A stretch of DNA of 64,000 nt from positions 1-64,000 of the forward strand of contig CANFHA010000003.1 in the NCBI GenBank assembly GCA_947446645.1, in the 5' to 3' direction. The notes under the pieces were generated by a model. It saw only the letters and a program-made list of their open reading frames with translations, did no database searches and had not been told where the DNA came from. The DNA comes from Chitinophagaceae bacterium. GTDB taxonomy: Bacteria; Bacteroidota; Bacteroidia; Chitinophagales; Chitinophagaceae. Of this stretch, positions 475 through 3,513 are shown piece after piece; within the stretch, counting starts at the first letter, position 1; each line of letters begins with the position of its first letter. Both the position numbers and the translations under genes were made by a program.

Positions 475-669
475 ATGGGAATTGAATTAGTGGTTATGTT
501 TTTGGCCGCAATAATGTTTGTGAGCGGCATAGTACTCATCTTTGTTTCCAAAGGGGCATGGAGGAAATTCGGCCTTGTGCTTATATTACTAGGCATCATC
601 ATTTTTGTGGTGTGTATGTTGTTCTGGCCACGGGCTAAGGAACATACCTTCATATTGCTTGGGTATTAG
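475..669 (+). CDS. Small two-TM membrane protein
   Basis: 64 aa, two hydrophobic segments, co-directional and just upstream of the Lgt-like gene. Confidence 0.6.
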   Translation: MGIELVVMFLAAIMFVSGIVLIFVSKGAWRKFGLVLILLGIIIFVVCMLFWPRAKEHTFILLGY

Positions 670-707
670 CGCCTGCCCGGGATTTTTCGTTTCATTTAAT
701 GTAGTTA

Positions 708-1481
708 TTGGCTGTGCGGTTTCCATTTACTCTACATATCGGCCAATATCCAGTTTTGCTGCATGGTCTGTTTGAGTTCGCGGGCATATTTGTGGCTTTC
801 AGATATTATGTGTGGCTACGCAAGCAGCAGGGAGATACGATATCGCAAGAGCACAGAATATACGCAATAACCGGCGCTGCACTGGGCGCTGTGATAGGCG
901 CAAGACTGGTTGGCGCTATGGAGAACCTGCCGGAATGGATGTCTGCTCCATCGGCATGGGCTTACTTTGCAGGTAATAAAACACTGGTAGGTGGCCTGCT
1001 GGGCGGCCTGGCGGGTGTGGAAATTGCTAAGAAAATAGCAGGAGAAAAGAGGAGTACCGGCGACCTTTTCACCTACCCGCTACTGGCCGGTATGATCATA
1101 GGCCGGATAGGCTGTTTTTCGGCGGGCATACATGAAGAGACTTATGGGGTGCCCAGCCACCTTCCATGGTCTATGGACCTGGGCGATGGTATAGCGCGCC
1201 ACCCGGTAACGCTATACGAGATCGTATTTTTGGTACTTTTATGGATAGGGCTTGCAAGTGTGCGGAGGCGGTTCGTATTGGATGAGGGAGCTTTGTTTAA
1301 GCTATTTATGATCGCTTACCTGGTATACCGTTTCCTGCAGGATTTTATAAAACCGGGCTGGCGGTATTGCCTGGGAATGGGAACTATACAGCTGGTGTGC
1401 ATAGCCGGGTTGCTGTACTATGGTAGATACATTATTCATCCGCGATCGCTGATCGTATCAAAACGGGGACATGCCAGTTAG
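708..1481 (+). CDS. Prolipoprotein diacylglyceryl transferase (Lgt)-like membrane protein
   Basis: Motif GRIGCFSAGIHEETYGVPSHLPWSMDLGDGIARHPVTLYE matches the Lgt core (GRiGNF..GE..G.pt.lPW...RHPsqLYE); multi-TM. Non-ATG start (TTG 708 or GTG 714). Confidence 0.85.
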   Translation: MAVRFPFTLHIGQYPVLLHGLFEFAGIFVAFRYYVWLRKQQGDTISQEHRIYAITGAALGAVIGARLVGAMENLPEWMSAPSAWAYFAGNKTLVGGLLGGLAGVEIAKKIAGEKRSTGDLFTYPLLAGMIIGRIGCFSAGIHEETYGVPSHLPWSMDLGDGIARHPVTLYEIVFLVLLWIGLASVRRRFVLDEGALFKLFMIAYLVYRFLQDFIKPGWRYCLGMGTIQLVCIAGLLYYGRYIIHPRSLIVSKRGHAS

Positions 1482-2862
1482 AAAATACACTTACTACGAC
1501 TTTACTGTTAGCCTGTGCCCAGAGTGCCTGAAGCGGATAGATGCGAAAATAGTGTTTGAAGATGGCAAGGTGTATATGCTGAAAACCTGCCCGGACCACG
1601 GATTTCATAAGGTCGTCATTGCGACAGATATAGAATACTATAAGAATACACGCAACTATAACAAACCATCCGAAACGCCGCTGAAGTTTAATAATAAGGT
1701 GCACTATGGCTGCCCCTATGACTGTGGGCTGTGTACCGACCATGAGCAACACAGCTGCCTGACACTGATAGAAATAACGGACCGGTGCAATCTTTCCTGC
1801 CCCACATGCTACGCTATGTCGTCGCCACATTATGGGCGGCACCGCACGCTTGAAGAGGTGGAGCGCATGCTGGACATAATAGTGGCGAGCGAGGGAGCGC
1901 CCGATGTGGTGCAGCTAAGCGGTGGCGAGCCTACGCTGCATCCGCAGTTTTTTGAGATACTGGATATCGCAAAGCGCAAGCCGATAAAGCACCTGATGCT
2001 GAATACGAACGGTGTGCGCATAGCGCAGGATCCGGGATTTGCAGAGCGGCTGGCTACTTATATGCCAGATTTTGAGCTATACCTGCAGTTTGACTCCCGT
2101 AGACCGCATGTGCTGGAGGCGCTGAGGGGAAAGGACCTTACGGATGTGCGGGTAAAGGCATTGGAAAAGCTGAATGAGCTGAACCTGTCCACGACTTTAG
2201 TAATAACGGTGCAGAAAGGCCTTAATGATGATGAGATAGGGTCGCTTATCGACTTTACGCTGACGCAGCGATGCGTGCGCGGCATTACCTTTCAGCCTGT
2301 GCAGATAGCGGGCAGATTTGAACATGACCCTGATAAGAACCGGATGACACTTACCGAGGTGCGGGATGGTATACTATCCCAAACGGATGTGTTTAAACCC
2401 AATGATATTATACCTGTGCCCTGCAACCCTGATGCGCTGGCTATGGGCTATGCGCTGAAGCTGAACGGTAATGTGTTTCCGCTGACGAGGTACCTGGACC
2501 CCGCGCTGCTGCTGAACAGCAGCTCGAAGAACACAATAGTGTATGAGCAGGATACACACCTGCATGAACAACTGATAAAGATATTCAGCACAGGCGTATC
2601 GGTAGATAAGGTGACGGAGGATATGCACCAGCTTTTGTGCTGCCTGCCGCAGGTGGTGGCGCCTGGTCTGGCTTATGAAAATTTATTCCGTATTATTATA
2701 ATGCGTTTTATTGATGCCTATGATTTTGATGTGCGGTCGATAAAGAAATCGTGTGTGCATATTGTGAGCAAGGACGGCAGGATAATACCCTTTGAGACCA
2801 TGAACCTGTTTTACAGGGATGAGAAGGAAAGCTATCTTAAGGAACTAACCGGAAGAGAATAA
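1471..2862 (+). CDS. Radical SAM protein of the Tes/MJ0619-like family
   Basis: CNLSCPTC (CxxxCxxC), upstream GCPYDCGLCTDHEQHSCLTLIEITDRCN motif, SGGEPTLHP; overlaps the lgt-like gene by 11 nt. Confidence 0.85.
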   Translation: MPVRKYTYYDFTVSLCPECLKRIDAKIVFEDGKVYMLKTCPDHGFHKVVIATDIEYYKNTRNYNKPSETPLKFNNKVHYGCPYDCGLCTDHEQHSCLTLIEITDRCNLSCPTCYAMSSPHYGRHRTLEEVERMLDIIVASEGAPDVVQLSGGEPTLHPQFFEILDIAKRKPIKHLMLNTNGVRIAQDPGFAERLATYMPDFELYLQFDSRRPHVLEALRGKDLTDVRVKALEKLNELNLSTTLVITVQKGLNDDEIGSLIDFTLTQRCVRGITFQPVQIAGRFEHDPDKNRMTLTEVRDGILSQTDVFKPNDIIPVPCNPDALAMGYALKLNGNVFPLTRYLDPALLLNSSSKNTIVYEQDTHLHEQLIKIFSTGVSVDKVTEDMHQLLCCLPQVVAPGLAYENLFRIIIMRFIDAYDFDVRSIKKSCVHIVSKDGRIIPFETMNLFYRDEKESYLKELTGRE

Positions 2863-2890
2863 ATAATTTGAACAGGTAAAAGCAGTTTAT

Positions 2891-3091
2891 ATGATGGATC
2901 TATTAGCTTTATTGGGTATAGTGCTGGCTGTAGTGGGTGGCCTGGCAGTGCCAATAGGCCTGGTAATTATAATAGTGGGGGCTCTTTCATCAGAGAAAAA
3001 GACAAGCAAGTTTGGTGTACGAGTGCTGCTGGTTGGGTCGGTAAGTTTGCTTTTTAGTTTCACACTTTGTTCCGTATCGTTCAAATTATGA
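2891..3091 (+). CDS. Small two-TM membrane protein
   Basis: 66 aa, two hydrophobic stretches, co-directional. Confidence 0.55.
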   Translation: MMDLLALLGIVLAVVGGLAVPIGLVIIIVGALSSEKKTSKFGVRVLLVGSVSLLFSFTLCSVSFKL

Positions 3092-3513
3092 AGAGGATAG
3101 TACAGGTTGTTTTAATGGTGATGCTTGCTGCTACGGCATTGGCTCAAAATAAGGATGAGCAGGCTATAACTAAAATGCTGGCAGCCCAGGTGGCGGAATG
3201 GAACAAGGGTAGTGTAGACGGCTATATGCATGGCTACTGGGACAGTGACAGCTTGCTTTTTATAGGGTCGGCGGGGCCGCGATATGGCTACCAGGCTACG
3301 CTGAAGCGCTACAAGGAGGCCTACCCGGATGCAGCCCATATGGGCACACTGATGTCTACGGTGGTGAGTATGAAGCGACTTTCAAAAGAGTATTATTTTG
3401 TTGTGGGCAAATGGGCGTTGAAGCGCAGTGCGGGCGATGTGGCCGGGTCTTACACATTGCTCTTGCGTAAGATAAAAGGTGAATGGGTGATTGTGAGTGA
3501 CCATAGCAGCTAA
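3088..3513 (+). CDS. Secreted SnoaL/DUF4440-like (NTF2-fold) protein
   Basis: Signal peptide MKRIVQVVLMVMLAATALAQ; DUF4440-like pattern ending KGEWVIVSDHSS. Confidence 0.75.
   Translation: MKRIVQVVLMVMLAATALAQNKDEQAITKMLAAQVAEWNKGSVDGYMHGYWDSDSLLFIGSAGPRYGYQATLKRYKEAYPDAAHMGTLMSTVVSMKRLSKEYYFVVGKWALKRSAGDVAGSYTLLLRKIKGEWVIVSDHSS

Follow-up and report, generated by a model that had tools for sequence, protein, structure and literature searches.

A putative lipidation cassette of Bacteroidota pairing an Lgt-like protein with a Tes-like radical SAM protein and small cysteine-bearing membrane proteins

Introduction

The locus described here raises the question of why a gene for an Lgt-like protein should overlap a radical SAM (rSAM) gene, and whether the small membrane proteins encoded on either side belong with the pair. 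The DNA analysed, hereafter the window, is a stretch of 64,000 nt from a Chitinophagaceae bacterium (assembly GCA_947446645.1, contig CANFHA010000003.1, positions 1-64,000, forward strand). Our reading, to which we assign a probability of roughly 55 %, is that the locus is a dedicated cassette in which the Lgt-like protein lipidates a cysteine of the small proteins, and the rSAM protein modifies the lipid tails or the conjugate by radical chemistry.

Results

Locus layout

The module in the window consists of four ORFs:

475-669, + strand: small1, a two-helix membrane protein of 64 aa (ORF)
708-1481, + strand: Lgt-like gene, 257 aa, TTG start, with a GTG at 714 also possible (PF01790)
1471-2862, + strand: rSAM gene, 463 aa (PF04055, PF23545)
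2891-3091, + strand: small2, a two-helix membrane protein of 66 aa (ORF)

The first-pass annotation of this DNA had described an overlapping Lgt-like and radical SAM pair with a small two-helix protein on either side, all on the forward strand, and the coordinates and motifs that it cited were found to be present. The Lgt-like and rSAM ORFs share an 11-nt overlap, and small2 starts 28 nt past the rSAM stop codon. A folded 5' leader was sought and none was found (z 0.93). The module is adjoined by a gene for a SnoaL/DUF4440-like small secreted protein (window 3067-3513); a gene of this type neighbours the module in several close relatives as well, on its upstream or downstream side, and may be an accessory restricted to this group. 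The window opens (1-258) with an 80-bp unit repeated in tandem, in 3.2 copies that match at 97 %.

Distribution of the module

Scanning GTDB species genomes revealed related loci, the best 80 of which were in Chitinophagaceae, Sphingobacteriaceae and other Bacteroidota, and cultured species of Chitinophaga, Sphingobacterium, Pedobacter and Niabella were among the carriers of the cassette. The Lgt-like gene occupied position -1 on the same strand, upstream of rSAM, in 71 of 77 clustered cases, and the neighbourhood beyond the pair was mostly ordinary and lineage-specific. Chance adjacency of the two genes was rejected, as most of the best 80 loci show this gene order. Among 398 evenly drawn Bacteroidota genomes, rSAM was present in 34, the Lgt-like gene in 36 and both in 32 (Fisher p about 2e-40, a value that ignores shared ancestry). 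Conservation of the pair in relatives had been named as a check by the first-pass annotation, and both the joint occurrence and the gene order upheld it. The two genomes of this draw with rSAM only were carriers of Tes or near-Tes proteins.

Within the window's genus, rSAM was detected in 10 of 35 genomes, all 10 of which had the Lgt-like gene and 9 of which had the small protein. Among the 25 genus genomes without rSAM, a clear-scoring Lgt-like gene or small protein was found only in G029, where an Lgt-like gene with stop codons is followed by a small-protein match, with no rSAM (locus L136, G029:C5:171122-171840); this locus is read as a decayed operon. The Lgt-like gene and rSAM were on different contigs in G094 and G337. 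One module-type Lgt-like gene on a long branch (L178, G077:C10:163727-164458), from a genome in which no rSAM was found, is perhaps a relic. In about 11 Chitinophagaceae loci, the gene directly upstream of the Lgt-like gene belonged to cluster c16 (L053:6629-7246, L185:3581-4225 and others), which encodes a lipoprotein-like protein of ~205-215 aa with no Pfam match and is a possible further client.

The trio of Lgt-like, rSAM and small-protein genes was also found on plasmids of Mycobacterium branderi and M. avium and in Nonomuraea. The rSAM proteins of these actinobacterial modules had 28-29 % identity, and their small proteins end in GxCTGxNP. The small-protein motif was kept at 28-40 % rSAM identity (L126, L127, L133, L135, M. 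branderi, M. avium and Nonomuraea), and the Cys motif was seen also in the distant loci L131, L132 and L142-L144, in other families, and in Chondrinema and Persicobacter. Viral contigs were also scanned, and no relative was detected in them. That the three gene types co-occur across Bacteroidota and on at least three actinobacterial replicons is well supported by these sequence comparisons, and the genes very probably make up a single system.

A different arrangement was observed at L211, L212 and L214, from Mycolicibacterium vanbaalenii and two haloarchaeal plasmids, where a methyltransferase gene comes immediately after the rSAM relative. None of these haloarchaeal and M. vanbaalenii relatives has an annotated Lgt gene as its neighbour; they pair with methyltransferases and were set apart from the module.

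The Lgt-like protein

The Lgt-like protein matched PF01790 (E 1.2e-22; 80.8 bits, above the cut-off of 24.9) and fell under every lgt equivalog cut-off, with 45.4 bits vs 118.9 for TIGR00544 and 39.2 vs 334 for PRK00052. Its AF2 model had a pLDDT of 91.8, and the top Foldseek match of this model was E. coli Lgt (5azb, E 6e-8). In an alignment to 5azb, residues R133, R208 and Y204 corresponded to R143, R239 and Y235 of E. coli Lgt and were invariant in 19 sequences. The places of E. coli E243 and R246 were occupied by D212 and K215, and the Lys replacing R246 was invariant in module Lgt-like proteins.

The first-pass annotation had suggested that this might not be the housekeeping Lgt, proposing a search for a second canonical lgt in the genome. 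Such a search returned a second PF01790 protein in the same genome (G000:C5:181654-182541), which scored 116 bits vs 80 for the protein of the window. A tree of 42 Lgt proteins grouped the window protein with the module Lgts (support 100/99) and placed nine housekeeping-type Lgts on one side of a branch (99/95). The non-housekeeping assignment is thus supported by the better-scoring second Lgt and by the separate clades, whereas the altered residues that had been cited in its favour lost their value as an argument. The module protein reads GRIGC, vs GRIGN, and lacks the His103 of HGGL, reading LVGGL; the housekeeping-type Lgt on contig C5 reads GRLGC and FLGGL. Neither change is diagnostic because both are shared by the housekeeping-type Lgt of the same genome, and GRIGC was rejected as a marker of a divergent Lgt. 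Also excluded from the module, as other Lgt-family proteins, were the second PF01790 match of G033 and those of G148, G228 and G327. The module protein is predicted to be an integral membrane glycerolipid transferase, distinct from the housekeeping Lgt.

The radical SAM protein

The rSAM protein matched PF04055 (E 1.5e-28) and the HMPTM zinc ribbon PF23545 (E 9.7e-21), and a sequence search retrieved archaeal Tes (7tol, E 2e-65). Its best-scoring NCBIfam model was TrsS (NF045646), at 327.7 bits against a cut-off of 490, and it scored 289.3 bits against the cut-off of 450 for Tes (NF045702). An identity as Tes or TrsS proper was rejected, as both scores are below the curated cut-offs. The distant module rSAMs were likewise below the Tes and TrsS cut-offs, and the TrsS cut-off was reached in none of the 398 Bacteroidota genomes.

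The metal ligands of Tes used for comparison were those of PMC9433317, and residues were mapped by 7tol chain numbering with an offset of 20, checked on C9, C12, C33 and H36. The rubredoxin-type site of the rSAM protein (C16-x2-C19-x20-C40-x2-H43) keeps the Tes ligands, and the N-cluster (C81/C85/C88) and RS cluster (C106-x3-C110-x2-C113) were invariant in 19 relatives. In the region of the C-terminal cluster, the labile Met439 of Tes corresponds to M411, which is conserved, and Cys456 to C428; the conserved Tyr459 of Tes is I431 in the rSAM protein. Where tested, both enzymes of the module appear to retain their catalytic residues or metal ligands. An AF2 model of the rSAM protein built with 19 sequences reached a pLDDT of 56 and was set aside.

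In the rSAM tree, the Lgt-linked proteins were on one side of a branch vs the Tes-type and methyltransferase-linked relatives (91/83), a grouping that is tentative because of long branches. The phylogeny that had been suggested as a check tentatively placed the module rSAMs apart from these relatives and not within an unrelated characterised family. The original description of a Tes/MJ0619-like enzyme stands as regards the 7tol match and the mapped ligands, but the protein is not Tes itself. By these comparisons it is assigned to the Tes/TrsS superfamily, with the iron ligands of Tes kept where they could be mapped.

The rSAM proteins at L128 (G125) and L134 (G364) are Tes or near-Tes proteins (493.8 and 441.9 bits, respectively, vs 450). 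These are candidates for the synthesis of membrane-spanning lipids in genomes placed in Bacteroidota.

The small TM-Cys proteins

The small proteins matched no Pfam or NCBIfam family above cut-off. They were present at nearly every module locus, with two to three helices and otherwise very divergent sequences. In small2, a K/R-rich loop is followed by a second helix and then by SFT-L-C60-S near the C-terminus (Cys codon 3068-3070); L54 and Cys60 were the sole invariant columns among 15 small2 homologues from closer relatives, which had 36 % mean column identity. In small1, the last charge of the K/R loop precedes Cys47 (codon 613-615) by 16 residues, and a small1 homologue at the same position in L017 keeps the Cys. 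Small1 is a probable divergent member of the same group, although its assignment is weaker than that of small2 because its motif departs from SFTLC, reading FVVC.

Of 156 small TM ORFs flanking the module, 135 have a Cys where their last hydrophobic stretch ends, compared with 18 of the 99 located away from the module within these loci. This count was unselected for Cys and is the figure to quote, because the pattern profile, of which the commonest form was LLxxGxxLLxG[FL][ST]xC[SGT], was selected for Cys. An automatic rule found small proteins at 94 of 106 loci, a low figure because the rule misses cases seen by eye (L085, L126, L127, L132, L213 and L215). No small protein was found next to rSAM at L095, L130 and L179 (the last at a contig end), nor was a small TM-Cys protein found alongside the Tes-type genes of L128 and L134. 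The number of small-gene copies per locus ranged from one to about four, and tandem divergent copies were seen in L025, L019 and L022; such copies suggest that the small proteins fit substrates better than subunits.

The topology of the small proteins was derived from charge and hydropathy. A net positive charge is found ahead of the last helix, and median distances from the Cys are 17 residues to the nearest charge and 8 residues to the C-terminus. This layout appears to mimic the n-, h- and c-regions of a prolipoprotein signal peptide, shifted to the last helix. The small proteins fall outside the definition of bacterial lipoproteins (N-terminal signal peptide, lipobox and small -1 residue), and their position -1 to Cys is mostly V, T, L or I. 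The first-pass annotation had placed them as flanking genes, which they are, being present on both sides; however, it understated their role, as they form a conserved third component with an invariant Cys and are the most likely candidate for the substrate.

Discussion

A proposed lipidation mechanism

According to the mechanism that we propose, the small protein would adopt an orientation with the K/R loop on the inner side and the last helix pointing outward, like a prolipoprotein signal peptide. The conserved Cys would then be at the periplasmic face, where Lgt works, and the Lgt-like enzyme would move the glyceryl-lipid part of phosphatidylglycerol onto it as a thioether. We consider this Cys the probable lipid acceptor. 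A cut by signal peptidase II is improbable because the small residue is often missing before the Cys; the small protein would stay whole, with the lipid on its C-terminal helix.

Radical SAM enzymes are expected in the cytosol. Since the Lgt active site is periplasmic and that of rSAM presumably cytosolic, both cannot act in one place, which favours a flippable lipid as the link between the two enzymes. The rSAM protein would activate a C-H bond of a hydrophobic tail, and its simplest role would be to couple the acyl-chain ends of phosphatidylglycerol before the Lgt-like enzyme uses the lipid. This would yield a small membrane protein bearing a special, possibly membrane-spanning, lipid. Acyl C-C coupling or methylation on a diacylglyceryl substrate, as suggested in the first-pass annotation, is a hypothesis; tail-tail coupling by rSAM in particular is one of several options and is put forward tentatively and with some doubt. 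It is a rather doubtful extension that a tail-joined, perhaps membrane-spanning glycerolipid on the last-helix Cys would leave the proteins covalently stapled through the bilayer, which would be a new post-translational modification.

Alternative explanations

The two enzymes may instead make an unusual free glycerolipid, such as a tetraester lipid or a diacylglyceryl on a small-molecule thiol, with the small proteins as scaffolds that hold rSAM at the membrane. Such a pathway would agree with Tes acting on free phospholipids (PMC9433317) and with Mss, which is proposed to do so (PMC13274423), as well as with PG being the Lgt donor and the small proteins being membrane proteins. However, a scaffold should conserve more than one Leu and one Cys and is not expected in one to four divergent tandem copies, and the Tes-type loci L128 and L134 were the ones with no small TM-Cys protein found beside the gene; a pathway to lipid alone therefore seems unlikely. 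We regard as similarly improbable a RiPP-like process, in which rSAM would modify the small protein in the cytosol, before membrane insertion, by a C-C or C-S bond within the peptide, and the Lgt-like enzyme would then anchor the product. Short, variable, multi-copy proteins near a radical SAM gene do resemble a RiPP organisation, and a lipoprotein-RiPP hybrid was reported from Bacteroidota (PMC12636315), but the small proteins have no leader/core pattern beyond the single Cys and are helical almost throughout, and the closest characterised relative of rSAM works on lipid tails.

The locus could also comprise an ordinary second Lgt for normal lipoproteins, beside which an unrelated radical SAM gene lies by accident. 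The catalytic arginines are kept, and the lipoprotein-like c16 gene is directly upstream in about 11 Chitinophagaceae loci. Nevertheless, this explanation is hardly credible in view of the near-perfect joint presence and absence of the two genes (p about 2e-40, ancestry ignored), their joint decay in G029 and their shared occurrence in two phyla with an rSAM identity of 28 %.

Implications of a dedicated cassette

If the reading as a dedicated lipidation cassette is true, Lgt-family Cys lipidation extends beyond N-terminal lipoboxes, and bacterial Tes-like enzymes can partner protein lipidation rather than only make free membrane-spanning lipids. Bacterial Tes homologues were noted by Zeng et al. 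and Lloyd et al. (2022), with their function not shown; the cassette provides a concrete lead for these proteins, and a caution on their use as markers of tetraether lipids. The occurrence of the cassette in cultured species makes it testable now. No Pfam or NCBIfam family describing the three-gene set was found, and a literature search for Lgt with radical SAM returned no description of it in open-licence papers, so that an earlier account elsewhere is possible.

Comparison with known systems

E. coli Lgt works from the periplasmic side with PG as its source of diacylglyceryl, and its R143 and R239 are essential (PMC4728403). The module Lgt-like protein shares the fold of this enzyme (5azb) and the equivalents of R143, R239 and Y235, and a further likeness is the location of the likely acceptor Cys, at the predicted periplasmic end of a helix after a positive loop. 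Unlike Lgt, the module enzyme is below the equivalog cut-offs, forms a separate clade, has Lys in place of R246 and is genetically tied to rSAM. The candidate Cys also differs from that of Lgt substrates, being near the C-terminus of a polytopic protein and not in an N-terminal signal peptide.

Tes, also known as GDGT-MAS (MJ0619, 7tol), binds phospholipids with polar heads and couples their tail ends (PMC9433317). It has the rubredoxin ligands, N-cluster, RS cluster, Met439 and Cys456 in common with the module rSAM, which differs in scoring below 450 bits, in having Ile for Tyr459, in its separate branch and in its other partner genes. The TrsS radical SAM (seleno)protein is the best NCBIfam match of the module rSAM, yet the match is under the 490-bit cut-off. 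Mss, the bacterial membrane-spanning lipid synthase, has a Tes-like architecture, as does the module rSAM, although the two were compared by description only. The available part of the Mss account proposes coupling of PG-type acyl-chain ends, models the binding of phospholipids with polar heads and makes no mention there of an Lgt partner (PMC13274423). The RiPP-lipoprotein hybrid of the dyb cluster combines a ribosomal peptide with Lgt lipidation in Bacteroidota; it differs in using an MNIO enzyme, the ordinary Lgt/LspA/Lnt path and an N-terminal lipobox (PMC12636315).
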